DNA of 47,326 nt from Cyclobacteriaceae bacterium (GTDB lineage: Bacteria > Bacteroidota > Bacteroidia > Cytophagales > Cyclobacteriaceae), in assembly GCA_019638285.1 (NCBI GenBank), contig JAHBUB010000031.1, positions 1 through 47,326 on the forward strand, read 5' to 3'. Shown piece after piece: positions 14,456 through 46,694 of the stretch (position 1 is its first letter; every line of letters starts with the position of its first letter). Position numbers and translations under genes: made by a program. Under the pieces are notes generated by a model that was not told the origin of the DNA, did not search any database, and saw nothing but the letters and a program-made list of their open reading frames with translations.

Positions 14456-16198
14456 ATGGGATTTTTAAAAAGTTTTTTTGCTTCCTGCCTGGGGTCGATT
14501 GTAGCCCTCATTCTAGTTATCCTGTTGGGGGGAATGATTTTCTCCTATGTCATTTCAAGTGAAAATGCAGTATCGGTAAATGACAATACTGTGTTATACC
14601 TGGATTTACAAGCACCAATAGTGGAGCAGGCCGTAGATGATCCATTGGCCCAAATAATTCCTGGAGGGCAACAACCCATAGGATTACTTCAACTAAAAGA
14701 AGCCATCGCTTTTGCGAAAAATGATGCTAAGGTGAAAGGGATATACCTGAATTTAAGCTTTCTGTCTGTCGGAACTGCCAGCATTGCGGAGATAAGACAA
14801 TCGCTTATAGATTTTAAGGGGTCGGGGAAATGGGTGATTGCCAACGCTCCGGCTTACACTGAAGGTTCTTATTACCTGGCCAGTGTTGCAGATAAAGTAT
14901 ATATGAATCCTTCTGGTCAACTGGAATTAAATGGATTGGCAATGGATGTGATGTTTTATAAAGGACTTTTAGATAGGCTTGAAGTAAAGCCACAGGTATT
15001 TAGGGTAGGAGATTTTAAAAGTGCAGTGGAACCATTCATCAGGAAAGACCTGAGTGATGAAAATCGTTTGCAATTGAATTCCTTGATTAATGGAATTTAT
15101 GATGAGATGTTGCAAGAAATATCCCTTGAACGAAACATACCCAAAACAAAACTGAAGGAGTTATCAGATAAAATGACAATTCGCTCAGCGGAGGAAGCGG
15201 TTACTTACGGACTCGTTGATTCTCTTTTTTATGATGATCAGGTGAGAGATGCAATTCGGGATCGGTTGAGCCTTGGTAAGGATGAAGATATTGAATTTAT
15301 ACCCTACAAATCTTATCGAAAGAGTGTGGCTCCATCCACTGCCAGTAATGAAATTGCTGTAATTATTGCAGATGGTGAAATTATGCCAGGCAAAGCGGAA
15401 AGTGGTGTTGTGGGTGCAGCCACCATAGTGAAGGAACTTAGGAGGGCACGTACCAATAACAAGGTTAAAGCCATTGTGCTGCGAGTGAATAGCCCAGGTG
15501 GTGTGTATCAGGCGGGAGATGATATGTGGAGGGAAATTGTATTGACTACAAAAGTGAAGCCGGTAATCGCCTCCATGGCTGACTATGCGGCTTCAGGAGG
15601 ATATTATATGGCAATGGCGTGCGATACCATCGTAGCGCAACCCACCACGATTACCGGATCGATAGGGGTGTTTAGTGTCCTATTCGATCTTAGTAGTTTT
15701 CTAGAAAACAAACTTGGGGTCACTACCGAAGAGGTGAAAACTGGAGAGGTAGGGGGACTCACTGTAACGCGCCCACTTACCGATTTGGAAAAGAGCATTT
15801 GGCAAAAACAGACCGATGAGATTTATGAAATTTTTATTCACAAGGCAGCCGAAGGAAGGAACATGAATGAGGATGAAATTAAGAAAATAGCATCGGGCAG
15901 AGTATGGACGGGTGCCCAGGCAAAGGAGAATGGACTGGTAGATGTCTTGGGTACTTTCAATGATGCGGTTGCACTGGCAGCAACCAAAGCCAATGTAAAG
16001 GATGACTACAGAATACGCTACTATCCGCAACCAAAAAGTTTTTTAGAACAGCTCACCAGCGACTGGGAAGGTGAAATAAAAGCACATGCTTTAAAAGCTG
16101 AAATGGGAGAGACCTATCATTTTTATCAAAAATGGGAAAAAATAAAACGCTATCAAGGTGTGCAGGCACGGTTTCCTTATGAATTAGAGGTAAGGTAG
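14456..16198 (+). CDS. sppA: Signal peptide peptidase SppA, 67K (double-domain) type
   Basis: Inner-membrane serine protease that degrades cleaved signal peptides. 580 residues, the long E. coli-like form with two ClpP/crotonase-like halves. One N-terminal membrane anchor lies at about 11-33 (SIVALILVILLGGMIFSYVI). The Ser-Lys dyad is split between halves: Lys188 in GDFKSAVEPF and Ser380 in ADYAASGGYYMAM. NSPGGVYQAGD (345-355) and TTITGSIGVF are the usual surrounding motifs. It ends 12 nt before a strong bidirectional hairpin terminator. The peptides encoded just downstream on the other strand carry signal sequences, but nothing in the sequence ties them to SppA. Confidence 0.95.
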   Translation: MGFLKSFFASCLGSIVALILVILLGGMIFSYVISSENAVSVNDNTVLYLDLQAPIVEQAVDDPLAQIIPGGQQPIGLLQLKEAIAFAKNDAKVKGIYLNLSFLSVGTASIAEIRQSLIDFKGSGKWVIANAPAYTEGSYYLASVADKVYMNPSGQLELNGLAMDVMFYKGLLDRLEVKPQVFRVGDFKSAVEPFIRKDLSDENRLQLNSLINGIYDEMLQEISLERNIPKTKLKELSDKMTIRSAEEAVTYGLVDSLFYDDQVRDAIRDRLSLGKDEDIEFIPYKSYRKSVAPSTASNEIAVIIADGEIMPGKAESGVVGAATIVKELRRARTNNKVKAIVLRVNSPGGVYQAGDDMWREIVLTTKVKPVIASMADYAASGGYYMAMACDTIVAQPTTITGSIGVFSVLFDLSSFLENKLGVTTEEVKTGEVGGLTVTRPLTDLEKSIWQKQTDEIYEIFIHKAAEGRNMNEDEIKKIASGRVWTGAQAKENGLVDVLGTFNDAVALAATKANVKDDYRIRYYPQPKSFLEQLTSDWEGEIKAHALKAEMGETYHFYQKWEKIKRYQGVQARFPYELEVR

Positions 16199-16210
16199 AT
16201 GGGGATAATA

Positions 16211-16239
16211 AAAAGGCAACCCGTTTAGAGTTGCCTTTT
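16211..16239. terminator. Bidirectional rho-independent terminator between sppA and the small-peptide operon
   Basis: Perfect 10-bp stem AAAAGGCAAC (16211-16220) and GTTGCCTTTT (16230-16239) with a 9-nt loop. T-rich tails are present in both directions, so it can end sppA on the plus strand and the minus-strand peptide operon whose last stop is at 16265. Confidence 0.9.
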
Positions 16240-16264
16240 GCTACGGCATTAATGAAGGATTTGG

Positions 16265-16432
16265 TTAGATGCTACCCGTATTTGATTCACTATATCCTGA
16301 TTTCTCAAATCCCTTGATAACTATAACTTGAGAATTTTCATCCTTGCTCTTTTCTGAATGGGCATCATAAGAGATAAAACCAAAAGCTGTAATTGCAGCT
16401 GCGGATACAAGTATTAAAGTTAATTTTTTCAT
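16265..16432 (-). CDS. Small exported peptide (55 aa), last gene of peptide operon A
   Basis: 55 residues. It has a classical N-terminal export signal (MKKLTLILVSAAAITAFGF, about 1-20) and then a short hydrophilic, Ser/Lys/Glu-rich mature part (DAHSEKSKDENSQ, ending SGYSESNTGSI). It follows the two CTDENIRPQ lipoprotein genes on the same strand, 12 nt after the stop at 16445, and is closed by the terminator at 16211-16239. There is no lipobox cysteine, so the mature peptide would be free in the periplasm or secreted. I do not recognise a family. The equivalent position in the second cassette holds another exported peptide of similar size (19359-19535). Confidence 0.65.
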   Translation of the reverse strand: MKKLTLILVSAAAITAFGFISYDAHSEKSKDENSQVIVIKGFEKSGYSESNTGSI

Positions 16433-16444
16433 AATCAATGTTGT

Positions 16445-16564
16445 TTAAACTTCGGCAGAGTCTTGGGTTCCATTTCCAGTTTGAGGCCTGATGTTCTCGT
16501 CAGTGCATGAGGTAGCCAGGCCTGTGATGATAATGAAAAGGGTTACGTAGATTAATTTTTTCAT
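16445..16564 (-). CDS. CTDENIRPQ small lipoprotein, copy 1 (39 aa)
   Basis: 39 residues: a lipoprotein signal peptide (MKKLIYVTLFIIITGLATS) with lipobox LATS-C at Cys20, then a 19-residue hydrophilic tail CTDENIRPQTGNGTQDSAEV. The protein is identical to the one encoded at 16619-16738. The two coding sequences differ at eight codons, all synonymous, and end in different stop codons (TAA here, TAG there). This is the pattern expected of translated genes under purifying selection. The leader contains AAACCATTTAAA about 10 nt before the ATG, a block also found upstream of the related gene at 19556-19690. The likely location is the periplasmic side of a membrane, or the surface. The function is unknown; context suggests a partner of the adjacent TPR kinase. 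Confidence 0.8.
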   Translation of the reverse strand: MKKLIYVTLFIIITGLATSCTDENIRPQTGNGTQDSAEV

Positions 16565-16618
16565 GAGATTGGTTTTTAAATGGTTTGTAAAATTTCTATT
16601 TATGGGATAATTAAAGAC

Positions 16619-16738
16619 CTAGACTTCGGCAGAGTCTTGGGTTCCATTTCCAGTTTGAGGCCTAATGTTCTCGTCAGTGCATGAGGTAGCCAAGCCTGTG
16701 ATGATAATGAAGAGGGTAACATAAATTAACTTTTTCAT
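16619..16738 (-). CDS. CTDENIRPQ small lipoprotein, copy 2 (39 aa)
   Basis: First gene of the minus-strand peptide operon, identical in protein sequence to the copy at 16445-16564 (signal peptide with lipobox at Cys20, then a 19-residue tail). Its ATG is 98 nt from the divergent kinase gene's first candidate start at 16837, so the two share a short intergenic promoter region. I see no convincing TAnnTTTG element in those 98 nt. The AGATTT-type sequence just before the ATG resembles the region before the third family member at 19690. The gene is too short for most gene callers. Confidence 0.8.
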   Translation of the reverse strand: MKKLIYVTLFIIITGLATSCTDENIRPQTGNGTQDSAEV

Positions 16739-16836
16739 AGATTTTGATCGTTTTAGGGTTTATTGAATGTTATATTTAAACTACTACTTTTACTAATAAA
16801 GCTATTGATTTTAAGTTTTACCATAATTTCTGCGCT

Positions 16837-18942
16837 TTGCTAATTAGTCAAAACTATAGTATTAGCCGTATCTTCCTAGGTAGGAAAGCGTACATTGACT
16901 ACGTACGTTATTCTTTCTTTTTTTTTGTATTGTTCCTGGGAGCAATTAACGCGTGGGCCCAATCAGCAGATGAAGACTTATTGGCTGATCTAAAGGCCAA
17001 TAATGAAGTAATTCATGATAGTCTTTATTATGAATTGTTCAGAATTAGTTACCACAATAGTGATCTGGAAAAAGCCAAGACGTACGCCCATAAGTCACTT
17101 TTGCTTAGCGAAAAATATAAGCACCTGAACATTACAGCTAAGTCGTGTCGTGCACTTGGATTGGTGTATCATAAGCTGGAGAATTTTGACTCTTCAAAAT
17201 TTTATTATTACAAGGGTATTGAAGTAGCGTCAAGGGCATCTCAAAACAAGTTATTAGTGTATTTGGCCAATGATTTCGGACGATTATATGAAAATCTTGA
17301 TGTTTACGACAGTGCACTTAGGTATTATAACTTGTCCCTGGAAAAAGCTGTAAAAATTGGTTCCAAGGAAGATGAGGCCTTTGCCTTAAATAATATCGGC
17401 CTTGTTTTTTATTATATAGGAAACAACACAGAAGCTCTTGAAAACCTTAATGCTGCAGTTGATATTAAACGAAAGTTAGGTATTAAATCCTTAGACATAA
17501 GTTTAATGAATATTGCATTGATCTATAATGAGCAAGGAAGATATGATCAAGCAATTCAACTTCTCAAAGAAGTAGAGGCCAAATGTTCAGAAGGTTGTGG
17601 AGACTATCTTTTAGCTGATTTGTACTACGATCTGGGATATGCCTATTTTGAGAAAAACCAATTATCCCTTGCCTACGATTATCTAGTGACTGGATACGAC
17701 TGGGCTCAAAAATCTGGGAACAAGAAGGTGATGGCGCACACCTTATACCATTTTGGTTTATACCAATTTGATAAGTCGGATTATAATCAGACAAGAGATT
17801 ATTTGGATGAGGCATTGAAACTTGCTAATGAGATGAACCTTAGACGACTGAAGAGAGATATTTATTTGGCCTACATAAGATTGTATGAAAAAACGAAGAA
17901 TTTGGAGTTGGTAGTTGAATTCCAAAATAAATATATTTCAATAAAGGATGACATCTTTAATGAGCAAATGGCTACCAACTTAAAAGAAATTCAATTGGAT
18001 GTCCAGCGCAAGCAATCGGAGGTTATCATTCTTCAGAAGGACACAGAGATTAAAAGAGTGCGATTAATCACCACCCTTATAGGTGTCATCTCTGTATTAT
18101 TGGTGGTTGTTTCCATTCTGATCTACCGAAGCTACCGCGCCAGTCATCGCATGAAAAAAATGCTTGAGAAGGAGATAAAAAATCGTACTGGAGAGTTGGT
18201 AAAAAGTAATGCTGACCTCACACAAATGACCCAGGAGTACGATCAGTTGGTGTACCGCGCCTCCCATGATATACGGGGTCCGCTGGCTACCTTGATGGGG
18301 CTTACCAACATTGCCAAACAGGATTACGAAGAACCACTGCGCGTGCGAGATTATCTTGGAAAAATTGAATCCACGGCACTGGGGTTAAACCAAACTTTAA
18401 GTCAGCTGATGGAGACCAATCGCATCCGCAATCTTCCTATTTGTATTGAAGAGGTAGATATGGGTGTGTTGGTGGAGGAGGTGTACAGTTCTTTTAAAAA
18501 CCTTAATCACTTTCCGCTTATATCATTGCGCATAGAGAGGGGTGATTGGAAAAAACCATTACAATCTGACAAAAACCTGATCGGTTTTGTGCTTACCAAA
18601 TTATTGGATAATGCATTTCATTATTTTGCTTCACACAAACAGGAGAAGTACATCAAAGTGTCATGGTCTCAAACGAATGACACTACTACCATTGCAGTGG
18701 AAGACAACGGATTAGGGATTGATGATCTGGCGAGGGAGAAGATATTTCAATTGTTTTATGTGGCCAGCGATATTCATGGTACTGGCTTGGGATTATTTTT
18801 GGCACAAATGGCCGCCAATAGATTGGGTGGAAGAATTATACTGGCGCGCTCTGCAGGCCCTACTATTTTTAAACTCATCATCTCAACCAATCTGGCCAAA
18901 AAAGAACTCGAAGAAAGGCCTGTGATGACTTTGGTGGGTTAA
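16837..18942 (+). CDS. TPR-containing sensor histidine kinase A
   Basis: 701 residues as an open frame. A signal-peptide-like segment (FFFFVLFLGAINAWAQ, ending near 42) precedes about six TPR repeats (about 55-390), then one membrane span (about 408-432, LITTLIGVISVLLVVVSILIY), a coiled coil, a HisKA-type dimerisation helix with phospho-acceptor His477 (SHDIRGPLATLMGL), and a HATPase_c domain with N box LLDNAFHY, G1 DNGLGID and G2 GTGLGLFLA. The TPRs should be periplasmic and the kinase cytosolic. No response-regulator gene or receiver domain is adjacent. The TPR region holds a CxxGC motif (Cys250, Cys254) that kinase B also has. No in-frame ATG exists before the signal peptide, so the start is uncertain; TTG at 16837 is the only standard alternative found. 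It is divergent from peptide operon A. Confidence 0.88.
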   Translation: MLISQNYSISRIFLGRKAYIDYVRYSFFFFVLFLGAINAWAQSADEDLLADLKANNEVIHDSLYYELFRISYHNSDLEKAKTYAHKSLLLSEKYKHLNITAKSCRALGLVYHKLENFDSSKFYYYKGIEVASRASQNKLLVYLANDFGRLYENLDVYDSALRYYNLSLEKAVKIGSKEDEAFALNNIGLVFYYIGNNTEALENLNAAVDIKRKLGIKSLDISLMNIALIYNEQGRYDQAIQLLKEVEAKCSEGCGDYLLADLYYDLGYAYFEKNQLSLAYDYLVTGYDWAQKSGNKKVMAHTLYHFGLYQFDKSDYNQTRDYLDEALKLANEMNLRRLKRDIYLAYIRLYEKTKNLELVVEFQNKYISIKDDIFNEQMATNLKEIQLDVQRKQSEVIILQKDTEIKRVRLITTLIGVISVLLVVVSILIYRSYRASHRMKKMLEKEIKNRTGELVKSNADLTQMTQEYDQLVYRASHDIRGPLATLMGLTNIAKQDYEEPLRVRDYLGKIESTALGLNQTLSQLMETNRIRNLPICIEEVDMGVLVEEVYSSFKNLNHFPLISLRIERGDWKKPLQSDKNLIGFVLTKLLDNAFHYFASHKQEKYIKVSWSQTNDTTTIAVEDNGLGIDDLAREKIFQLFYVASDIHGTGLGLFLAQMAANRLGGRIILARSAGPTIFKLIISTNLAKKELEERPVMTLVG

Positions 18943-19303
18943 TTTTTTGATAATTTGATGTTCCTTTCCGGAGATAGCGTTAGCCTAATTCTTAGATTTT
19001 AAAAATAACTCAACCCTTACCCATTAGCATGTAAGAAACAGTATTCGTTTTGTCATATTTTCATGTTTTTTGACATTTTGGTATTTTTTATTGCATGCCT
19101 TCTTACGGCTTCTATAAAAGTATTGTGTGAGTTACGACCTGTCTTTTTCTTTGCTTCACCCTAACCAAACATTTGCGGGTATCTATTCCGAATTATTTTA
19201 ATAATGATTGTATCTTGGGCCAATGTGAGAATTAAGAACCACGCCTTGCAGCTTATGGTTGCGGAGATAGAAAGAAGAATTTTGTAACGGGTAAGGACGC
19301 AAA
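18943..19303. other. Intergenic stretch without a supported gene
   Basis: About 360 nt between kinase A and the terminator of peptide operon B. AT-rich, with several T-runs near 19060-19100. I find no ORF above 30 codons with a credible start, no strong terminator directly after kinase A, and no tRNA. A 27-codon plus-strand ORF at 19204-19287 is not supported. Confidence 0.6.
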
Positions 19304-19339
19304 TAAAAAAACCCTTTCAACAAATGCTGAAAGGGTTTT
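19304..19339 (-). terminator. Rho-independent terminator of peptide operon B
   Basis: Perfect 12-bp stem AAAACCCTTTCA (19308-19319) and TGAAAGGGTTTT (19328-19339) with an 8-nt loop. On the minus strand it is followed by further T residues and lies 19 nt after the stop of the 58-aa peptide gene (19359). Confidence 0.9.
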
Positions 19340-19358
19340 GAATTAGAAATGACCTCGA

Positions 19359-19535
19359 TTAATCAAACTGGTTTATGTCTGTCATGGCAAACGGTTGCAT
19401 GGGTGCTTTTTCATCTTGTAAGCTTTGCGTGGATACCGCATGTTTTTTTGCATCCACTTTTGGAGTGCCGGTGTGCAGTACAAAAGAAAACAGCGAAGCG
19501 ATGAGAAGTAACAGGAACAGAAGTTTTATTTTCAT
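19359..19535 (-). CDS. Small exported peptide (58 aa), last gene of peptide operon B
   Basis: 58 residues. It has a strong hydrophobic export signal (MKIKLLFLLLLIASLFSF, about 1-20), then a hydrophilic tail with VDAKKHAVSTQSLQDEKAP and ending PFAMTDINQFD. There is no lipobox cysteine. It is the second gene of a two-gene minus-strand operon, 20 nt after the lipoprotein gene at 19556, closed by the terminator at 19308-19339. It occupies the same position as the 55-aa peptide in cassette A; the mature parts show little residue identity by eye. No family recognised. Confidence 0.65.
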   Translation of the reverse strand: MKIKLLFLLLLIASLFSFVLHTGTPKVDAKKHAVSTQSLQDEKAPMQPFAMTDINQFD

Positions 19536-19555
19536 GGTCTTAAATATTTTAGTTT

Positions 19556-19690
19556 TTACTTACAACCAAATTGGCATGGATCACCGGAACTTCCACCACC
19601 ATCTTGTGGACGAATGTTTTCATCGGTGCATGAAGAAATGGCAAATGAAGTTACAACAGCAAATACCAGGGTGTAGAATAATTTTTTCAT
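19556..19690 (-). CDS. CTDENIRPQ small lipoprotein, third family member (44 aa)
   Basis: 44 residues: a lipoprotein signal peptide (MKKLFYTLVFAVVTSFAIS) with lipobox AISS-C at Cys21, then CTDENIRPQDGGGSSGDPCQFGCK. The block SCTDENIRPQ is identical to that in the two lipoproteins of cassette A, while the tail diverges and gains two cysteines (CQFGC). The leader shares AAACCATTTAAA with copy 1. It is divergent from kinase B, with 160 nt between the two start codons. Conservation of the residues immediately after the lipobox, rather than of the tail, suggests that region is the functional or sorted part. Confidence 0.8.
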   Translation of the reverse strand: MKKLFYTLVFAVVTSFAISSCTDENIRPQDGGGSSGDPCQFGCK

Positions 19691-19767
19691 AGATTTAAAA
19701 GTTTAAATGGTTTTAAAAGTTAGAATTGGTTAATGTTTTTGTCTCTATAAGTTTAATATCAACAAGG

Positions 19768-19797
19768 CAAAGATGAGCATATTGGATATTACCTAAA
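19768..19797 (-). promoter_or_regulatory. Possible promoter of peptide operon B
   Basis: On the minus strand CATCTTTG (19768-19775; one mismatch from TAnnTTTG) with TTTA (19794-19797) 18 nt upstream. Transcription would start near 19760, giving a leader of about 70 nt. Both boxes are imperfect. Confidence 0.35.
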
Positions 19798-19850
19798 GTG
19801 TAAATGAATTTTCACAGACACCTATGTACCTAAAAATCAATTAGTTACAA

Positions 19851-22013
19851 ATGAAATGGATCAAATCAATAGGGATCGTGATTCTTGTAGCCTGTAGTTA
19901 TTGGTCATACCCCCAATCGCAAACCATTGATTCGCTTCATGAGCGTTTGCCCTTGTCACAAGGACAGGAGCGTTTTAGAATTCTCATTGAATTGTTTAAA
20001 GAGAATTTAAGCATCAATTATGATTCTGCCTTGCATTACGCATCGCTCGCAACAACGCAAGCAAGACAAATGAATGACAGCCTTTCCATCGTGAAAGCCT
20101 ATAACACTCAAGGTTGGGCTCGCATGAAATTGGGCAGTTCACTTTGCATCCCAGATTTTGAATATGCTCTTTCAATTGCCAGGAGAAATGGTTACCACGA
20201 TCAGATCAAGTTTTTACTGAACAATTTGGCTATTTCTCACAATGATTTTGCGAACTATGACAAAGCGCTGGAGTATCACTTTCAGTCTCTTCAGTTGCGG
20301 CAATTGGAGGGAAATGCATTAGATGTGAGTATTGCACTGAACAACATTGGTCTAGTCTACTCCAATCTTTTTGATTATGAAAATGCACTGATTTATTTTC
20401 AAAAATCAAAAGATTTAAAAGAAGACAATGGAATTACCCACGATCTGGACAGGGCCTATACGAATATTGCTCTGGCTTATTTCAATTTGAAGAATTATGA
20501 TGAAGCGTTGAGAAATATATCTGTAGTTTTGAAAATATGCGAAAAGGGATGTGCTGATGAGATTTCGGTAGAGGCGCATTTTGCATTGGCTAAAATATTG
20601 CAAAAAAAGGGAGAGATCAACCAAGCCGAAGATGAATTGAATAAGACCATTGAAATTGCCAAAAGATTAGGGTCTAAGATGTTTGAATCACAAGCGTTCC
20701 ATTTGCGCGCATTGATACAACTGGATGAGCATAAACCCGATAAGGCCTTAGCTTACCTGGATGAAAGTCAATTGGTACTGGTCGGTACCAACCTGCGTGA
20801 CCAAATCCTGAATAATTATTTGCTGTATGTCTCTATATATAATAGTATGGGTAACTATAAGGCTGCTTCCGAGTACCAACAAAAATATATTGAATTGAAC
20901 CAGAAGATTTTTAGCGGAGACCTGATTAAGAATATTTCGAGGATTCAGACAGAGCATGAGGAAAGGGAAAACATAAAAACCATTGCAGCCAAAGATCAGG
21001 TGCTGGCGTTGCAGAAAGAAGTCATTGCTCGCCAGAAGACACAATATGCTTTTATTATCACCATCACCTTTCTCACGCTGGGTTTTGCTTTCATGATGTA
21101 CCGCGCCAATCGAACACAGCGCAAAATCAATCGGGAGCTGGCTGCTGCGAAGGCGACCATACAAAAACAAAATGAAATGTTAAGTGGTGCCAATCTCCAA
21201 TTGGAAAGTGAGGTAAAGGAACGTACTAGAGAACTGGTGAAGTCCAATGAATCTTTGGTGAAAGTGAATGATGAAATGGATAATTTTATTTATAAAACTT
21301 CTCATGATATCCGGGGGCCACTAGCCAGTCTCAAAGGCATTTGCAATGTAGCCATGATGGATGTAAAGGATGAGACTGCGCTGGACTACTTCAATAAGTT
21401 GGATGCTTCTGCGGCCAAACTCAATGCTATCTTAAGTCGACTTTTGATCATCAATCAGATTAATCACTCTATACTTACCGCTGAATATATTGATTTCACT
21501 ACACAGATAGAGGAAATCCTGGAGTTGGAAAGAAAGAAAGGATTGCCTGAAAGAATTGATATTTCCTATGATGTGGAACCTGGTTTGCAATTCAGATCGG
21601 ATAAGGAAATGGCGAAAATTATTCTGGAGAACCTTATTGACAATGCTATAAAATTTCATAATTATTCTCAACGGGTAGATCCTTTTGTGAGAGTAGAGAT
21701 AGCTTCTGAGGGGGGGTGTGTTTCTGTAAAAGTGATTGATAATGGAATTGGCATAGACAAGGAAAGCAAAGACAAGATATTTCAGTTGTTTGTGAGGGCC
21801 ACTGAGCGTTCTGAAACAGGTGGCATCGGATTGTATCTGTCAAAGCTTGCCACACTTAAACTGGGGGGTGATATTGTTGTTGATAAATCAGAAGAAGGAT
21901 ATACCATTTTTAAAGTGTTGTTTCCTCCGGACCTGGTGCCCGTCATTGAAAGGCGTAATGCAGAGGAGACAATGCGAGAAAAGCAGAAACAAAAAGTACA
22001 AAATACGCCATAA
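19851..22013 (+). CDS. TPR-containing sensor histidine kinase B
   Basis: 720 residues, paralogous to kinase A over its whole length. A signal peptide (about 1-23, IGIVILVACSYWSYPQSQ) precedes periplasmic TPR repeats to about 370, one membrane span at about 396-418 (YAFIITITFLTLGFAFMMY), a coiled coil, HisKA with His485 (SHDIRGPLASLKGI), and HATPase_c with N box ILENLIDNAIKFH, G1 DNGIGID and G2 TGGIGLYLSK. A CxxGC motif (Cys230, Cys234) sits in the TPR region at the place equivalent to kinase A. The short C-terminal tail is Lys/Glu-rich (ERRNAEETMREKQKQK). ATG at 19851 gives a proper signal peptide. There is no adjacent response regulator, and metG begins 53 nt downstream. It is divergent from peptide operon B, so context mirrors kinase A. 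Confidence 0.92.
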   Translation: MKWIKSIGIVILVACSYWSYPQSQTIDSLHERLPLSQGQERFRILIELFKENLSINYDSALHYASLATTQARQMNDSLSIVKAYNTQGWARMKLGSSLCIPDFEYALSIARRNGYHDQIKFLLNNLAISHNDFANYDKALEYHFQSLQLRQLEGNALDVSIALNNIGLVYSNLFDYENALIYFQKSKDLKEDNGITHDLDRAYTNIALAYFNLKNYDEALRNISVVLKICEKGCADEISVEAHFALAKILQKKGEINQAEDELNKTIEIAKRLGSKMFESQAFHLRALIQLDEHKPDKALAYLDESQLVLVGTNLRDQILNNYLLYVSIYNSMGNYKAASEYQQKYIELNQKIFSGDLIKNISRIQTEHEERENIKTIAAKDQVLALQKEVIARQKTQYAFIITITFLTLGFAFMMYRANRTQRKINRELAAAKATIQKQNEMLSGANLQLESEVKERTRELVKSNESLVKVNDEMDNFIYKTSHDIRGPLASLKGICNVAMMDVKDETALDYFNKLDASAAKLNAILSRLLIINQINHSILTAEYIDFTTQIEEILELERKKGLPERIDISYDVEPGLQFRSDKEMAKIILENLIDNAIKFHNYSQRVDPFVRVEIASEGGCVSVKVIDNGIGIDKESKDKIFQLFVRATERSETGGIGLYLSKLATLKLGGDIVVDKSEEGYTIFKVLFPPDLVPVIERRNAEETMREKQKQKVQNTP

Positions 22014-22066
22014 CATTCCCTTCTATCGCCATCTTTGCAATTGGAAAATTGGAAGTGTAAGTATCC

Positions 22067-24178
22067 ATGGAAAAAGATAAAGTTTTCAAAAGATATACAA
22101 TAACGGCTGCATTACCTTATGCCAACGGTCCCAAGCATATTGGGCATTTGGCTGGAGCATACATTCCATCTGATGTGTATTCGAGGTATCTGAGGCTCAA
22201 TAATAAAGATGTAATCTTTGTGTGTGGTAGCGATGAACACGGTACCGCGATACCCAATCAGGCGCTAAAGGAGCATACTACCTCCAAAGCGATCATTGAT
22301 AAATACCATGCGCTCATCCGGGATTGTCTCTATAAGTTAGGGATCTCTTTTGATGTGTACCATCGTACCAGCGATCCATTGCATCATCAAACCTCACAAG
22401 AATTTTTCCTCACCCTGTTCAACAAAGGGTTGCTCAAGGAGGAAACCTCGGAACAATATTATGATGATGATGCCAAAGTATTTCTTGCTGACCGATATAT
22501 TATTGGAACTTGCCCGAAGTGCGGCTATACGGAAGCCTATGGAGATCAGTGCGAAAAATGCGGATCCTCTTTGAGTCCTAGGGAACTGATCAATCCAAGA
22601 TCAACACTATCGGGTAAAGAACCTATACTAAAGCCCACCAAGCATTGGTACCTGCCGCTCGATAAATATGAGGGGTGGCTTAGTCAATGGATTTTGAAGG
22701 ACCATAAAAAAGACTGGAAAGCCAATGTATATGGCCAATGTAAATCCTGGATTGATGCAGGATTGCAGTCCAGAGCCATGACACGAGATTTGGATTGGGG
22801 TATTAAGGTGCCATTGCCTAATGCAGAGGGCAAAGTGCTTTATGTTTGGTTTGATGCGCCCATTGGTTATATCTCTGCCACGCGCGCACTTTTTCAAGAG
22901 TTGTCATCTGGAAAAAATAATTATGCCACTCCACAACGAAATTTCGGGACAGTGCACGAAGACGATTGGAAGTCGTACTGGCAAGATGAAGAAACGAAAC
23001 TTGTTCATTTTATTGGGAAGGACAATATTGTCTTCCATTGCATTATTTTCCCGATCATGTTGCACAGCTCTGAGAAATATATCGTTCCTCAAAATGTACC
23101 GGCCAACGAATTCATGAATCTGGAAGGAGACAAAATGTCCACGAGTAGGGGTTGGTCAATTGAGATGCATGAATACCTGGAAGACTTTCCTGATAAACCA
23201 GACGTGTTGCGCTATGCGTTACTTACCAATTTACCCGAGACCAAAGACAGTGAGTTTACCTGGAAAGATTTCCAAAGTAAAAACAACAACGAGCTGGTAG
23301 CCATTTTTGGAAACTTTGTGAATAGGGCCATGGTGCTTACGCACAAATACTATGAAGGAAAGGTGCCGGCCAAGGGCATACTGGATGAATTGGATAAAAA
23401 TGTAATTGAAGCATTGAGTGAATTTCCTTCTAAAATAGGAGGCGCTATCGAAAACTATAAGTTCAGAGAAGCTACAGCCCATCTTATGGACCTCGCTCGT
23501 TTGGGAAATAAGTATCTGGCGGATACAGAACCATGGAAGTTGGCCAAAACGGATATGAACAGGGTGGGAACCATTCTCAATCTTTCTCTTCAAATTGCAG
23601 CCAATCTGGCGGTGCTATCAGCCCCATTTCTTCCTTTCAGTGCTGAAAAACTAAAAGGAATACTGAAACTTAAGTCTTTCAGCTGGGAAGAAACGGGTAC
23701 TGTAGTTTTACTGGAAGACTCCCACCAGTTAAGTGCAGCGGAATTATTATTCGAAAAAATAGAAGATGAGGTGATTGCTAGGCAGATCACCCGCCTTAAT
23801 GAAAATAAGAAAAGGATGGAATTACAAAATCAGCCAGTGAACCCCGCTAAAGCAGAGATTACCTATGATGAATTCTCTAAAATGGATATGCGGATTGGAA
23901 AGGTGATTTCTGCTGAGAAGGTAGAGAAGTCAAAAAAGCTACTGAAAATGCAGATTGATACAGGTATTGACACTCGAACAGTCTTGAGTGGAATTGCCGA
24001 GCACTATACTCCTGAAGAAATGGTGGGCAAGCAGGTAACAATTCTCGTCAACCTGGCACCAAGGAAAATTATGGGGTTTGAATCTCAAGGCATGATATTG
24101 ATGGCTGAAGACAAAGACGGTTCTCTTAAGTTAATTAACACTTCTGATCCGGTAGCACCAGGTTCTCCTATTAGTTAG
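22067..24178 (+). CDS. metG: Methionyl-tRNA synthetase MetG with C-terminal tRNA-binding domain
   Basis: Charges tRNA-Met in the cytosol. 703 residues. The class I motifs are ANGPKHIGH (HIGH) near the N-terminus and KMSTS at 356-360 (a common KMSKS variant in MetG). A zinc-knuckle insert [19 protein letters not shown] lies at about 148-166. An anticodon-binding helical domain follows. The last 100 or so residues ([21 protein letters not shown], then [19 protein letters not shown]) form the EMAP-II/Trbp-like dimerisation and tRNA-binding domain. A promoter-like CATCTTTG lies at 22030-22037, one mismatch from TAnnTTTG. Confidence 0.97.
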
Positions 24179-42171: not shown

Positions 42172-42200
42172 TAATGTTAAACTTTAAATATCTATCTATT

Positions 42201-43097
42201 ATGAGTATTCAATGGACCGGAGTTTTCCCGGCACTTACCACGAAATTCACGAATGACTTTCAACTGGACTATGATCTATTTGAAAAAAACCTAAAGGTTC
42301 AACTTGAAGCAGGCGTTAGTGGAGTTATTCTGGGAGGGACACTCGGAGAGTCCAGTGTTCTTGAGAATAGAGAAAAACTTGATCTTGTAAAATTTACAGT
42401 AGAAAAGGTGGCTGGTAAGGTTCCTGTAGTGATGAATATTGCTGAAGGTAGTACTGCGGAAGCTATAAAAGCTGCAAATGATGCAGAGAAAAATGGAGCC
42501 AAGGGTTTGATGTTATTACCTCCAATGAGGTATAAATCTGACCATAGGGAAACCGTTACATTTTTTGGAGAGGTAGCTAAATCCACTTCTCTACCTATCA
42601 TGATTTATAATAATCCTATTGATTATAAGACAGGAATAACTTTGGAGATGTTCGAGGATCTTACAAAGTATGACAACGTTCAAGCTGTGAAGGAGTCAAC
42701 CAGAGATGTTTCTAATGTTACCCGAATGATTAATAAATTTGGTACCCGTTACAAGATTTTGTGTGGAGTAGATACATTGACACTGGAAGAATTGGCGTTG
42801 GGTGCTGACGGATTAGTGGCTGGGCTTGTTTGTGCATTCCCCTGGGAAACCATGGCTATTTATAACCTTGTAAAAGCAGGTAAAATAGAAGAAGCAGTTA
42901 AAATTTATAGATGGTTCCTTCCCATATTGGAATTGGATATTCACCCAAAATTGGTTCAGTACATTAAATTGGCAGAAGCAGAAGAGGGTATTGGTTCTGA
43001 GCATGTAAGACCTCCACGTCTTCCTTTGATAGGAGAAGAACGCGAGCGAGTTTTAAAGACCATTCGTGATGGAATTAAAAACAGACCAAAATTGTAA
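42201..43097 (+). CDS. DapA-family lyase, probable 1-pyrroline-4-hydroxy-2-carboxylate deaminase
   Basis: 298 residues, class I aldolase/DapA fold. GGTLGESSVLENREK (45-59) holds the substrate carboxylate loop, Tyr136 is in IMIYNNP, and the Schiff-base Lys164 is in VQAVKEST. True dihydrodipicolinate synthase normally has GTTGE; the change to GGTLGE and the neighbours argue for the hydroxyproline branch, where this family removes water and ammonia from pyrroline-4-hydroxy-2-carboxylate to give 2-oxoglutarate semialdehyde. The ATG at 42201 fits the MSIQWTGVFPALTT opening; an earlier in-frame ATG (42174) lies at the predicted transcription start. It is the first gene of the catabolic operon. Confidence 0.88.
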   Translation: MSIQWTGVFPALTTKFTNDFQLDYDLFEKNLKVQLEAGVSGVILGGTLGESSVLENREKLDLVKFTVEKVAGKVPVVMNIAEGSTAEAIKAANDAEKNGAKGLMLLPPMRYKSDHRETVTFFGEVAKSTSLPIMIYNNPIDYKTGITLEMFEDLTKYDNVQAVKESTRDVSNVTRMINKFGTRYKILCGVDTLTLEELALGADGLVAGLVCAFPWETMAIYNLVKAGKIEEAVKIYRWFLPILELDIHPKLVQYIKLAEAEEGIGSEHVRPPRLPLIGEERERVLKTIRDGIKNRPKL

Positions 43098-43111
43098 TTA
43101 GTTTAGTTGTT

Positions 43112-43159
43112 AGTTGATCTTGTTGCTGGATTTTGAGATCCGGCAGCAGATCAACTTTT
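43112..43159 (+). terminator. Intercistronic hairpin in the hydroxyproline operon
   Basis: AGTTGATCTTGTTGCTGGAT (43112-43131) pairs with 43138-43156 in about 19 pairs with one bulged T and a 6-nt loop, followed by TTTT (to 43159). It lies 15 nt past the deaminase stop and 40 nt before the dehydrogenase ATG, so it may partly terminate transcription or stabilise the upstream mRNA. Confidence 0.7.
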
Positions 43160-43198
43160 GTTGCTATTAAGTATACTTGGAATTTAAATAAACCGATT

Positions 43199-44695
43199 AT
43201 GTCATTCAAAGATGCTACCCTGACCGAAGTTGATGCCGCCATGAATGAAGCACATGTTGCTTTTCTCTCTTACAAGAATTTTAGCGGAAAGAAAAGAGCA
43301 GCGTTTTTGCGTGCGATTTCAGACGAAATGGAAGCTTTGGGTGATGAGCTGGTGAAAACCGCAATGAGTGAAACGGCTCTTCCTGAAGCCAGAATTATTG
43401 GAGAGCGTGGCAGAACAACAGGTCAATGTCGCATGTTTGCTGATTATATAGAGGAGGGTTCTTGGGTAGAAGGTCGAATTGATACTGCCATTCCTGATCG
43501 GACTCCTGCTCCCAAACCAGACATTAGAAAAAAATTGATACCAATAGGTCCAGTGGTAGTCTTTGGGGCAGCCAACTTTCCATTGGCGTATTCTACTGCG
43601 GGAGGAGATACTGCGTCTGCATTGGCAGCCGGGTGTCCTGTGATTGTAAAAGCACATCCAGCTCATGCCAAAACTTCTGAGCTGGTAGCTGGAGCGATTA
43701 AGAAAGCAATGAATAAAACAGGTATGCCTGCTGGTGTTTTCCAGCATTTGCATGGCTCTGGGTTTGAGGTAGGACAAGCGCTGGTGAAGCATCCTCGTAC
43801 TTGTGCGGTAGGTTTTACTGGTTCGTTTTTGGGAGGGAAAGCCTTATTTGATTTGGCCAATCAACGGCCCACACCCATTCCTGTATTTGCAGAAATGAGC
43901 AGTACTAATCCGGTTGTACTCCTACCAGATTCGCTTAAAAAAGATTTTGAAAAGACAGCAAACACGCTGTCGTCTTCCATAGTGCTTGGGGTAGGACAGT
44001 TTTGTACTAATCCAGGACTTCTATTTGCGGTAGAAGGAGATGGTTTGGAACAATTTATTAAGTATTTATCCGCAGGAATTAGCAAGTCTCTACCAGCTGA
44101 AATGCTGCATGAAGGTATAGCAAAAAATTATGTGAAGAGACTGTCTGAAACCCTCTCACAAAAAGGAGTAAAGTTAGAAGTGCAGGCAGAAACAGAATCT
44201 AAGACGGGTGACAAGGATCAAGGTAGACCTACCGTGGCTTCTGTTCAAGCGGCTACGTTTTTGGAAAATCCGTCTTTGGCCGAGGAAGTGTTTGGGCCAT
44301 TCTCATTAATTGTTCGATGCAAGGATATGAACGAACTCAATAGTGTAGTAGGTCGTATTCATGGGCAACTCACCTCCAGTATTATTGGTGAGGTGGAAGA
44401 GATAGCCAAGCACACCAGTCTGATTAATATGTTGACGGAGAAGGCGGGGCGTTTAATTATTAATAATGTGCCAACAGGAGTTGAGGTATGTCCATCTCAG
44501 AATCATGGCGGGCCTTTTCCGGCTACAACTGATTCTAGATTTACAGCGGTAGGTACTGATGCAATAAAAAGATTTGCGCGGCCTCTTTCATTTCAAAATT
44601 TCCCCGATTCGCTTTTGCCTGATGAACTTAAGAATAATAATCCTTTGGGAATTTGGAGAGAAGTGAATGGCGAGATGACACGTAAAAATTTGTAA
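43199..44695 (+). CDS. Aldehyde dehydrogenase, probable 2-oxoglutarate semialdehyde (2,5-dioxovalerate) dehydrogenase
   Basis: 498 residues. The aldehyde dehydrogenase core has catalytic Cys269 in GVGQFCTNPG and general-base Glu232 in PVFAEMSSTNP. FGAANFPLAYSTAGGDTASA and a cofactor loop around KAHPAHAKTS are typical of the KGSADH (2,5-dioxopentanoate) branch, which lacks the longer N-terminus of many ALDHs. It would oxidise 2-oxoglutarate semialdehyde to 2-oxoglutarate. The start is ATG 43199; an upstream TTG (43133) lies inside the preceding hairpin and is rejected. It ends 2 nt before the next gene. Confidence 0.9.
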   Translation: MSFKDATLTEVDAAMNEAHVAFLSYKNFSGKKRAAFLRAISDEMEALGDELVKTAMSETALPEARIIGERGRTTGQCRMFADYIEEGSWVEGRIDTAIPDRTPAPKPDIRKKLIPIGPVVVFGAANFPLAYSTAGGDTASALAAGCPVIVKAHPAHAKTSELVAGAIKKAMNKTGMPAGVFQHLHGSGFEVGQALVKHPRTCAVGFTGSFLGGKALFDLANQRPTPIPVFAEMSSTNPVVLLPDSLKKDFEKTANTLSSSIVLGVGQFCTNPGLLFAVEGDGLEQFIKYLSAGISKSLPAEMLHEGIAKNYVKRLSETLSQKGVKLEVQAETESKTGDKDQGRPTVASVQAATFLENPSLAEEVFGPFSLIVRCKDMNELNSVVGRIHGQLTSSIIGEVEEIAKHTSLINMLTEKAGRLIINNVPTGVEVCPSQNHGGPFPATTDSRFTAVGTDAIKRFARPLSFQNFPDSLLPDELKNNNPLGIWREVNGEMTRKNL

Positions 44696-44697
44696 AA

Positions 44698-45645
44698 ATG
44701 CATTTTATTGATTCTGAGGACATAGAAAAATATACGGATTACCCTATGTTGATTGAAATGTTGAGGGATGCATTTCAAAAACAATATAAAATACCAAAAA
44801 GACACCATCATCAATATCCCAATCCAAAGGAGGGTGTGGAGTCTACTTTATTATTGATGCCGGCCTGGGATGATGGAGAGAATTTGGGAGTTAAAGTAGT
44901 GAACGTATCTCCCAACAACAGCAAGCATAATTTACCTACCATTCAAGGGAAGTACCTGCTTTTTGATTTGCAAACAGGCACCCCGAAGGCTATTTTAGAT
45001 GCTAAGTCACTGACCAATAAGAGAACGGCTGCGGCATCCGCTTTGGCATCAGGGTTTCTTTCCCGAGAGGATGCCAGTTGCCTTTTAATGATTGGAAATG
45101 GAGCGTTGGCTCCTGAGTTGATTAAGGCACATACAGTGACACGTCCCATTACAAAAGTATACCTATGGGGAAGGAACTTTGAAAAATCTGAATCCGTGTC
45201 TCAACAGTTGAGCAAATTGGGAGTAGAGATTATCCCGATAAAGGACTATATCCCTTATCTGGGGGAAGCTGATATTATTTCCTGTGCCACTTTGAGTCCG
45301 ACACCGTTGATTTTTGGTAAGCACATTAAAGCAGGGCAGCACTATGATTTAGTGGGTGCCTACAAACCAGATATGCGCGAAGCGGATGATGAATTTATTT
45401 CATCGGTGAGCATTCATGTGGATAACTATGAGGGTGCTACTACAGAGACAGGTGATCTGGCAATTCCTCTAAGAGAAGGTGTAATCACCAGAGATCATAT
45501 TCTTTCCGAGTTATTTGAACTGTGTCGATCAGAGAAAGTAGGAAGAAAGGACGATAAGGAAATCACTTGTTTTAAATCAGTAGGACATGCCCTGGAAGAC
45601 TTGGCGGGGGCCAAACTGGTTTTTGATGCTTACGAAAAACGATAG
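44698..45645 (+). CDS. Ornithine cyclodeaminase/mu-crystallin family protein, probable pyrroline-2-carboxylate reductase
   Basis: 315 residues. Family landmarks are LGVKVVNVSPNNSKHNLPTIQGKYLLFD-type sequence at about 63-90 (in OCD the Lys and Arg here bind substrate), DAKSLTNKRTAAASALAS at about 100-117, a Rossmann region (LLMIGNGALAPELIKAH) at about 128-145, and DLVGAYKPDMREADDE near 220. Relatives include ornithine cyclodeaminase, alanine dehydrogenase and the NAD(P)H-dependent reductase of pyrroline-2-carboxylate. Among hydroxyproline genes the last activity is most likely, returning pyrroline-2-carboxylate to L-proline. Its gene begins 2 nt after the dehydrogenase stop. Confidence 0.82.
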   Translation: MHFIDSEDIEKYTDYPMLIEMLRDAFQKQYKIPKRHHHQYPNPKEGVESTLLLMPAWDDGENLGVKVVNVSPNNSKHNLPTIQGKYLLFDLQTGTPKAILDAKSLTNKRTAAASALASGFLSREDASCLLMIGNGALAPELIKAHTVTRPITKVYLWGRNFEKSESVSQQLSKLGVEIIPIKDYIPYLGEADIISCATLSPTPLIFGKHIKAGQHYDLVGAYKPDMREADDEFISSVSIHVDNYEGATTETGDLAIPLREGVITRDHILSELFELCRSEKVGRKDDKEITCFKSVGHALEDLAGAKLVFDAYEKR

Positions 45646-45695
45646 TAGTTGTCAATAAATAAACCACATAAGCGGTCAGCATTGACTGAAGTTTT

Positions 45696-46694
45696 ATGAA
45701 GAAAACATTTTTTTGTATAGATGCACATACATGTGGCAACCCAGTTAGACTGGTAGCTGGAGGAGGGCCCCTATTGAAAGGTGCGAACATGAGTGAGAAA
45801 CGTCAACACTTTTTGAAGGAATTTGATTGGATCAGAAAAGGACTCATGTTTGAGCCACGAGGTCATGATATGATGAGTGGCAGTATTCTATATCCACCCT
45901 CTGATCCTCAAAATGATATTGGTGTTTTGTTTATTGAAACCAGCGGCTGTCTGCCAATGTGTGGTCACGGAACTATTGGCACGGTAACCATTGCCATTGA
46001 GGAAGGACTTGTTATACCGAAAATACCCGGTAAGTTAAGATTGGAAACACCTGCAGGACTGGTGCTCATAGAGTATAAACAAGAGGGAAAGAAAGTGAAG
46101 TCAGTAAAACTTAGAAATGTCAAGTCTTACCTCGCTGCTGAAAACATTACAGCCGAGTGTCCTGATCTTGGTGAGCTTACTTTTGACGTTTCTTATGGTG
46201 GAAATTTTTATGCGATCGTTGATGTCCAACCAAACTTTAAAGGAATAGAACATTACACAGCCGATCAACTGATCAGTTGGAGCCGAACACTTCGTAAAAA
46301 TATTAATGCAAAATATGAATTTGTACATCCGGAAAACCCAACAATAAACGGATGCAGTCATATCTTGTGGACTGGCGCTACTATTGATCCAGAGGCCACT
46401 GCTCGCAATGCAGTGTTTTATGGAGACAAGGCGATAGATCGTTCGCCCTGTGGCACAGGCACTTCTGGCAGACTTGCCCAATGGTATACCAAAGGGAAAT
46501 TAAAACAAGGAGAGCCTTTTATTCATGAAAGTATTATTGGTTCTAAATTCATTGGTAGGGTGGAGGAAGTGACTGAGTTGGATGGTAAGCCGGCCATTAT
46601 TCCCAGCATTGAAGGCTGGGCGATGGTTACAGGGTACAACAACATCATCATTGATGATGATGATCCTTACGCACATGGTTTTCAGGTAATCTAG
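45696..46694 (+). CDS. Hydroxyproline 2-epimerase (proline racemase family)
   Basis: 332 residues. Both catalytic cysteines of the racemase/epimerase type are present: Cys89 in LPMCGHGTIG and Cys251 in DRSPCGTGTSG. In trans-3-hydroxyproline dehydratases the second cysteine is replaced by threonine, so this protein should epimerise rather than dehydrate. It begins with the family's FFCIDAHTCGNPVRLV. It would interconvert trans-4-hydroxy-L-proline and cis-4-hydroxy-D-proline, the first catabolic step. It lies 11 nt before the FAD dehydrogenase that would oxidise the D product. Confidence 0.93.
   Translation: MKKTFFCIDAHTCGNPVRLVAGGGPLLKGANMSEKRQHFLKEFDWIRKGLMFEPRGHDMMSGSILYPPSDPQNDIGVLFIETSGCLPMCGHGTIGTVTIAIEEGLVIPKIPGKLRLETPAGLVLIEYKQEGKKVKSVKLRNVKSYLAAENITAECPDLGELTFDVSYGGNFYAIVDVQPNFKGIEHYTADQLISWSRTLRKNINAKYEFVHPENPTINGCSHILWTGATIDPEATARNAVFYGDKAIDRSPCGTGTSGRLAQWYTKGKLKQGEPFIHESIIGSKFIGRVEEVTELDGKPAIIPSIEGWAMVTGYNNIIIDDDDPYAHGFQVI

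Follow-up and report, generated by a model that had tools for sequence, protein, structure and literature searches.

A divergent module of a TPR histidine kinase and tiny exported lipoproteins and peptides with covarying tails in Cyclobacteriaceae

Background

The closest described counterparts of the genes considered here are the RRNPP systems of Firmicutes (Rap-Phr, PlcR-PapR, Rgg-SHP), in which, according to excerpts of PMC10075063, a gene for a small exported propeptide lies beside a tetratricopeptide repeat (TPR) receptor, a candidate signal resides in the last residues of the propeptide, and duplications occur. A comparable arrangement is present in a 47,326-nucleotide stretch of DNA (the window; contig JAHBUB010000031.1 of assembly GCA_019638285.1, Cyclobacteriaceae bacterium), where two cassettes at positions 16,211 to 22,013 each pair a TPR sensor histidine kinase, K1 or K2, with a divergent operon of tiny exported proteins. 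As in the RRNPP loci, a small exported propeptide gene adjoins a TPR receptor, a candidate signal lies at the end of the product, and there are duplications. The small open reading frames (ORFs) of about 39-65 aa, with a lipobox or a hydrophobic signal recognised by pattern, fall within the RRNPP propeptide range of 10-100 aa with a secretion signal. The receptor, in contrast, differs from the adjacent intracellular TPR protein of 250-500 aa: it is a membrane histidine kinase, mostly of about 660-800 aa, with a signal, a membrane span, HisKA and HATPase_c domains and an extracytoplasmic TPR region, and its hosts are Gram-negative Cytophagales. Moreover, the peptide here has a lipid-anchored twin with a similar tail, and the signal would not enter the cytoplasm.

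Exported lipoproteins that report to a kinase are represented by the NlpE-CpxA, RcsF-Rcs and QseG-QseE pairs, although NlpE, RcsF and QseG are larger folded proteins that are not known to have a twin soluble peptide or covarying tails. Periplasmic TPR histidine kinases are widespread in Bacteroidota, and a class-wide search found TPR sensor proteins in many families. One such periplasmic kinase of Bacteroidota, FimS of Porphyromonas gingivalis (NCBIfam NF053520), is the best NCBIfam match of both window kinases (96.0 and 97.9 bits), each of which lies far below the FimS equivalog cut-off of 600 bits. The passages of PMC11053733 on FimS suggest a polypeptide ligand and describe the signal as still unknown in 2024; the word lipoprotein is absent from the main text of that paper, the fimS neighbourhood itself not having been searched. 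An earlier note on this DNA, made from the sequence alone, knew of no described system with the present layout, and we likewise found none in searches of open-access full texts.

Results and discussion

A module tied to one kinase clade

Two cassettes of the same orientation fill the interval between sppA and metG in the window. Each consists of a plus-strand kinase and, diverging from it on the minus strand, one or more lipoprotein genes followed by an exported-peptide gene and then a strong terminator. All parts of the twice-repeated cassette described in the earlier note are present, including the terminators, the 55-58-aa peptides and the 39-44-aa lipoproteins. A search with the lipoprotein in 196 genomes of the window's family (E 0.01 or better) gave matches in 35 of them. 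In 28 genomes (27 and the window's own) the match lies in an open frame of at most 111 aa beside a TPR kinase. In the other seven, a signal peptide is matched in a frame of 204-528 aa, and the stretch examined holds no such kinase. The second kind of product, the exported peptide, accompanies the lipoprotein in 24 of the 27 loci outside the window; L071 and L076 are without one, and L045, at the edge of its contig, matches the peptide profile only in part. The peptide profile, searched against the same 196 genomes, led to another six (G036, G186, G107, G127, G184 and G115) in which kinase, peptide and lipoprotein are all present. Of the eleven stretches taken from further matches to this profile, L114-L118 and L120 are the six that hold a kinase with small genes, while L119, whose match is at a contig edge, and L121-L124 show the match and no kinase in the stretch. 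Approached from the receptor side, with K2 as the query (E 1e-60 or better), the kinase was found in 41 of the 196 genomes, 36 of which have a tiny lipoprotein upstream; in another (G083) the contig ends 333 nt upstream of the kinase.

The kinase alignment, scanned against 84,980 species genomes, gave 177 loci, of which the best 80 were analysed. By title, the scanned loci come from Chryseolinea, Chryseosolibacter, Parachryseolinea, Pseudochryseolinea, Dawidia, Ohtaekwangia, Fulvivirga and Marivirga, together with many uncultured Cyclobacteriaceae, Flammeovirgaceae, Cytophagales and Bacteroidetes. At least 700 nt of upstream sequence is available in 66 of the best 80, and a tiny lipoprotein is present in 64 of these 66 (62 by pattern, L157 and L181 by eye), as one copy in 47 loci, two in 8 and three in 9. 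The two loci without it are L206 (Marivirga) and L208, the latter on the same contig as G075. This sample and that of the family genomes overlap in genomes and are not independent. In the 700 nt ahead of the kinase, tiny-lipoprotein ORFs number 1.80/kb on the divergent strand, compared with 0.008-0.049/kb in six control zones. Since 55 of the 65 loci with room downstream have a metG-like ORF no more than 450 nt behind the kinase, the module occupies largely one orthologous place.

No tiny lipoprotein occurs within 700 nt of any of 25 less related TPR sensor proteins. These controls came from searching 247 genomes of the class, to which the third TPR kinase of the window's genome (L011) was added; some of them are paralogues in module-bearing genomes, and L236 was dropped as having no usable ORF. 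Nineteen of the 25 match the kinase part as well, and six (L239, L240, L242, L244, L246 and L248) match the sensor part only. At the sequence level, the module and its specificity for this kinase clade are established. The earlier note had named the absence of such ORFs beside orthologous kinases as a finding that would overturn it, and they are present in the 64 loci and 36 genomes counted above. When 295 class genomes were searched with the lipoprotein profile, scoring at most 24 candidates per genome, the matches listed outside the window's family were weak (at most 33 bits), with the best in long ORFs and a few weaker ones in short ORFs. So far the module extends over this family and close Cytophagales, and divergence of the tails could hide a wider spread.

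Tails that vary together

The last 12 residues of lipoprotein and exported peptide were compared within units, with partners shuffled after removal of per-sequence effects. Tail covaries with tail in 69 curated units (z=10.0), in the 60 units whose kinases are <80% identical (z=9.1) and in the 22 whose kinases are <50% identical (z=6.4); p is 5e-5 in each case, the lowest value that the test can give. For these three sets, the control pairing of signal with signal gave z values of 0.2, 0.1 and -0.9, and that of lipoprotein start with tail gave 1.8, 0.9 and 1.3. A smaller set of 32 units yielded z=6.4 (p=5e-5) and, in ten resamples with one unit per genus, p values of 1e-4 to 0.025. Examples of lipoprotein and peptide tails, respectively, are KHSGVTQDDKKF and KLSGVTLEDNKF in L182, LENGYGHVSERI and AAPAGGFGSERI in L171, and VGNGVVKDDPGF and TLSGITKDDTTF in L188. 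The 69 units were curated by eye before counting. The lipoproteins of L157 and L181 were reassigned from the peptide list and the peptides of L170 and L182 from the lipoprotein list; extra non-matching ORFs were dropped in L140, L157, L164, L193 and L201, as were the peptide candidates of L210 and L214; and the set leaves out units lacking either gene, short kinase ORFs, the K2 unit of L140, and G044, G184 and G063.

Recent gene conversion was rejected as a general cause of the likeness, there being no excess of shared codons. In units with kinases <80% identical, Met and Trp left out, the same codon is used at 68 of 207 identical tail residues, against 80.6 expected from the codon usage of these genes. 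Tail similarity also tracks TPR identity when histidine kinase (HK) identity is held constant (partial Mantel, partial r 0.42 and 0.54); the corresponding value for the peptide linker is 0.11.

The reading that we favour, to which we give about an even chance, is that the shared tail is what the periplasmic TPR domain reads, the locus being a self-contained module of ligand and receptor. It builds on the anatomy, the conservation, the purifying selection on one pair of copies, the kinase-clade specificity and the tail covariation observed here. The divergent operon would make two kinds of tiny exported protein, one lipid-anchored and one with a hydrophobic export signal. Each ends in a tail, about 9-12 residues long and specific to the locus, in which the two kinds tend to resemble each other. 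These tails would bind the concave groove of the periplasmic TPR solenoid of the kinase, and this binding would switch or tune, in whichever direction, HisKA phosphorylation, with an unlinked response regulator as its target. The peptide (soluble or held in the membrane) and the lipid-anchored protein may share one site, where the first could be a free ligand and the second, for instance, a tethered ligand or a competitor, and divergent transcription could let the output of the kinase regulate its own ligands by feedback. The earlier note had proposed that the small products are ligands or partners of the TPR domain. This proposal is partly supported by the occurrence of small ORFs beside orthologous kinases, their absence beside the 25 other TPR sensors, and tail covariation.

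Several observations weigh against this reading. The N-terminal motif of the lipoproteins, described below, resembles a surface-export signal, which would take them out of reach of a periplasmic domain. Four of the 41 kinase genomes (G002, G013, G075 and G150) are without the small genes, and some kinases that have none still stand beside metG (L127, L128, L129 and L134); because some metG-adjacent kinases are without them, the small genes have been gained or lost. Not every covariation control is flat: in the sets of 69, 60 and 22 units, tail with linker gave z values of 1.2, 1.3 and 3.1, and lipoprotein start with linker gave 1.8, 2.0 and 2.3, although the tail effect is much larger than any of the controls in these sets. 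Shuffling within genera left tail with tail at z=2.4 (p=0.009), and this test is not decisive because the lipoprotein-start controls are nearly as strong (p=0.013 with the tail, p=0.011 with the linker). A lipoprotein's own partner ranks first in only 9 of 69 units, with a median rank of 15, and the lipoprotein and peptide tails of the window's own two units are not obviously alike. As judged from these sequences, tail covariation is a trend and not a strict one-to-one code. In L182 (6 of 8) and L190 (4 of 5) identical tail residues do share codons, and these loci are possible exceptions in which conversion took place. Furthermore, a similar relation holds for the signal peptides, whose partial r with TPR identity at constant HK identity is 0.32-0.34, and because of this correlation the case for coevolution of TPR and tail beyond phylogeny is weak.

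If the tails do bind, this module would give Gram-negative bacteria a signalling system of peptide and TPR receptor, and a gene family of about 39-65 codons outside the coverage of Pfam would acquire a function. The candidate ligands that accompany this conserved kinase group are short enough for synthesis, and their cognate and non-cognate tails offer a ready comparison of specificity. A bolder version, which we put forward tentatively and consider doubtful, is a previously undescribed class of Gram-negative peptide signalling in which the periplasmic TPR kinase would read a species-specific C-terminal code presented both on an anchor and on a soluble peptide, comparing tethered with free copies, possibly between neighbouring cells.

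Small lipoproteins, exported peptides and other possible roles

The genome from which the window derives has three copies of the lipoprotein, all of them at this locus, and one other match that is insignificant (E 0.24). LpA and LpB share 39 identical residues, and their DNA is 93% identical over 119 nt. They differ at eight sense codons (plus the stop codon), and all eight differences are synonymous; random single changes would be synonymous in 23% of cases, so the chance of eight out of eight is about 7e-6. Because all eight sense-codon differences are synonymous, LpA and LpB are probably translated and under purifying selection, and translation of the small genes is strongly suggested. The four tiny proteins tried had no match in Pfam, and NCBIfam gave only matches below cut-off: LpC to the PG1828 family lipoprotein (E 8.6e-4) over residues 1-25, which are the signal part, and the exported peptides, weakly, to Phr-type families (E 0.05 and 0.3).

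In 95 distinct lipoproteins the parts follow one another as lipobox, mature-start motif, short linker and tail, and the median mature length is 24 residues. The mature protein typically begins with C-[TS]-[ED]-E-E-[VI]-x-P, with T or S at +2 in 83 of the 95, E or D at +3 in 88, E at +4 in 87, E at +5 in 63, V or I at +6 in 93 and P at +8 in 93. This anchor-proximal motif is more conserved than the tail. Positions +2 to +5, next to the lipidated Cys, thus follow the pattern of the Bacteroidetes lipoprotein export signal (LES), which was worked out in other families and is given as a polar residue followed by acidic residues after Cys (SDDDD, SDDFE) in the relevant parts of PMC5080379. The present motif differs from the LES in extending to the near-invariant Pro at +8 and in heading a mature protein that is itself so short. 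The likeness suggests that the lipoproteins may be exposed at the surface.

The same features would suit an envelope sentinel, in which the lipoprotein is a dispensable decoy destined for the outer membrane or the surface. Failed export would keep it near the inner membrane, where its tail would meet the TPR domain and trigger the kinase, the soluble peptide being a resting competitor. NlpE/Cpx and RcsF/Rcs are precedents, and the likeness of C-[TS]-[ED]-E to the LES, the near-constancy of positions +2, +4 and +8 and the greater conservation of the motif than of the tail all speak for this explanation. We nevertheless regard it as unlikely: the five SusD-like proteins of the window's genome are only loosely similar at the mature start, multiple near-identical lipoprotein copies would not be needed, and an export signal defined for this family was not found in the consulted parts of PMC5080379.

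The lipoprotein is present in one to three copies per locus, and in four in L115, and the 58-aa lipoprotein of L130 (G063) carries the tail unit DVVRRGEDIRG twice in tandem, a repeat that also counts in favour of the ligand reading. The multiple copies, the internal tail repeat and the differences in tails between species would be in keeping with a diffusible pheromone, whereby the peptide, together with a tail set free from the lipoprotein, would leave the cell, re-enter the periplasm of neighbours and report density or kinship, much like the RRNPP peptides of Firmicutes. The locus also bears an RRNPP-like signature, i.e., a small exported propeptide, an adjacent TPR receptor and a candidate signal in the C-terminal 4-10 residues, as the excerpts of PMC10075063 have it. 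The lipid anchor, however, argues for retention, while release, processing and return through the outer membrane are unsupported, and we think a pheromone of this kind quite unlikely. The tails bear as well on a narrower analogy drawn by the earlier note, with the pheromones of enterococci. Those derive from the cleaved signal peptide, whereas here it is the mature C-terminal tail that covaries and the signal peptides do not. The analogy is therefore set aside, and a pheromone made from the signal peptide is not favoured.

In the exported peptides, a hydrophobic N-terminus that often ends in LSFTF is followed by a variable linker and then by a tail, for example GGFxSEDKF, and an AxA cleavage site is not clear by eye. 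The often conserved hydrophobic LSFTF stretch could be an uncleaved anchor, as would be the case if the tiny lipoprotein and a membrane-held peptide were structural or regulatory subunits that hold or dampen the kinase near the membrane, in the manner of MgrB on PhoQ and QseG with QseE. The tails would then be alike only since both touch the same surface of the kinase. A divergent operon fits a feedback inhibitor, but conserved tails at the far C-terminus behind variable linkers look like a recognised end and not like a membrane-proximal contact, and subunits of this kind seem very unlikely to us. The sentinel, the pheromone and the membrane partner are versions of one idea, and the evidence at hand, which comes from sequence, fits each of them.

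Both kinds of tiny protein end most often in F, which closes 27 of 95 lipoproteins and makes up the largest class among the peptides, and which might be a sorting or protease tag. It might be supposed that the small genes are only targets of the kinase with an unrelated job, such as that of a small antimicrobial or envelope peptide, and that their tails match via a shared protease or sorting signal; a divergent layout is indeed common for a regulator and its target. A general tag would be constant across species, yet the tails vary together by locus, and we find this explanation extremely improbable.

Two variations in the tiny proteins were seen in addition. In a distant branch of the module (L210, L212 and L213), the lipoprotein tails contain a CEC motif and Arg/Glu, e.g., DCECEGGLLDRER, which suggests a different tail class. 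Four other loci (L169, L175, L178 and L180, from three Fulvivirga records and one Flammeovirgaceae metagenome-assembled genome) have two exported-peptide genes with nearly the same tail, of the SGFALEDENQF type, beside the lipoprotein.

The kinases K1 and K2

K1 (plus strand, 16837..18942, up to 701 aa) and K2 (plus strand, 19851..22013, 720 aa) both have TPRs, HisKA and HATPase_c above the Pfam cut-off, in agreement with the domains assigned by the earlier note, along with an N-terminal hydrophobic signal and one hydrophobic span detected by eye. They are 30% identical over 596 aligned columns. Both carry the phospho-accepting His and the HATPase_c N and G boxes that mark HisKA-class sensor kinases. 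In the 81-row alignment A4, His485 of K2 (21303..21305), Asp630 and Gly632 are invariant and Asn598 is nearly so; the HATPase_c domain of K2 occupies aa 586-693 (21606..21929). As the earlier note had remarked, no response regulator is near: no receiver domain was found on the contig of the window, and the other contigs of the genome carry 43 receiver-domain matches.

Where K1 begins is uncertain: it was called at a TTG, the signal-like stretch has no ATG ahead of it, and the alignment with relatives sets in at about residue 22. A long T run at about 16910-16935, at the start of K1, may reflect a non-ATG start or an assembly error. The tandem of K1 and K2 recurs in the relatives L138, L139, L140 and L141, although K1 is partial in L141. 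In the tree, four K1 orthologues group as a separate clade with a long branch. The possibility that K1 is a recent copy of K2 was rejected on these grounds, and because the K1 orthologues are a separate long-branch clade the two units are old. If the ligand reading is right, two units with different tails would provide two channels in one genome.

A structure of K2 predicted by AlphaFold2 with 81 kinases has a mean pLDDT of 86 and a pTM of 0.55, and in its TPR solenoid (aa 25-355, 19923..20915) block pLDDT is mostly >90. Sequence matches of the sensor part include, besides designed TPRs, the peptide-binding proteins LGN, kinesin light chain and Rap phosphatase, as well as Pins. In a fold search, of which the 50 best of 1339 matches were considered, histidine kinase cores rank first and LGN/Pins complexes next, with a loose superposition (rmsd about 9-11). 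Four Asn residues in successive first helices of TPR pairs are conserved, namely Asn124 (73/81), Asn164 (75/81), Asn165 (80/81) and Asn205 (79/81), and Cys230 (71/80) and Cys234 (72/81) form a CxxxC motif. By TPR convention the conserved Asn residues would face the groove; these residues and the CxxxC fit an extracytoplasmic peptide-binding TPR domain. In four loci (L056, L061, L117 and L132), runs of TPR proteins, mostly of about 500-540 aa, lie beside these kinases or are related to them. Three of these proteins, from L061, L117 and L132, have TPR matches in Pfam and neither HisKA nor HATPase.

Layout of the window

The first cassette is preceded by a plus-strand ORF of 580 aa (14456..16198) that we take to be sppA, signal peptide peptidase-like; an sppA-like ORF also lies upstream of the kinase in many related loci (blastp). 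Between it and the peptide gene, an inverted repeat (16212..16238, minus strand) forms the terminator of the small genes of unit 1 and may serve sppA too. Although an initial terminator scan of the window missed it, it folds better than 200 shuffles (z -3.9), as does the terminator of unit 2 (19308..19339, minus strand; z -5.5), which the scan found. Next come, all on the minus strand, the exported peptide of unit 1 (16265..16432; 55 aa from its ATG, tail ..GYSESNTGSI) and the lipoproteins LpB (16445..16564; 39 aa, mature C-TDENIRPQTGNGTQDSAEV) and LpA (16619..16738; 39 aa). In unit 2, the corresponding genes encode an exported peptide (19359..19535; 58 aa, tail ..PFAMTDINQFD) and LpC (19556..19690; 44 aa, mature C-TDENIRPQDGGGSSGDPCQFGCK). 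The two peptides match peptide profile A2 with E values of 7.7e-12 (unit 1) and 4.1e-13 (unit 2), each sequence being itself a row of A2. Signal peptides, lipoboxes and the membrane span were assigned by pattern and eye, without SignalP. Downstream of K2 is a plus-strand ORF of 703 aa (22067..24178), presumably metG, methionyl-tRNA synthetase.

An Rfam scan of positions 15500-22500 gave no match, a sigma-70 promoter scan at the locus found 14 against 12.6 expected, and a search of a plasmid collection returned only matches of <60% identity. The Bacteroidetes-type promoter pattern TTTG/TAnnTTTG is found in full, over 55 divergent gaps, twice toward the kinase (0.8 expected) and three times toward the small genes (0.1 expected), numbers that are too few to interpret. 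Elsewhere in the window, positions 42174-46694 hold a run of genes, presumably a dihydrodipicolinate synthase-like protein, an aldehyde dehydrogenase, an ornithine cyclodeaminase-like and a proline racemase-like protein, which resembles a cluster for the breakdown of hydroxyproline or a proline derivative.

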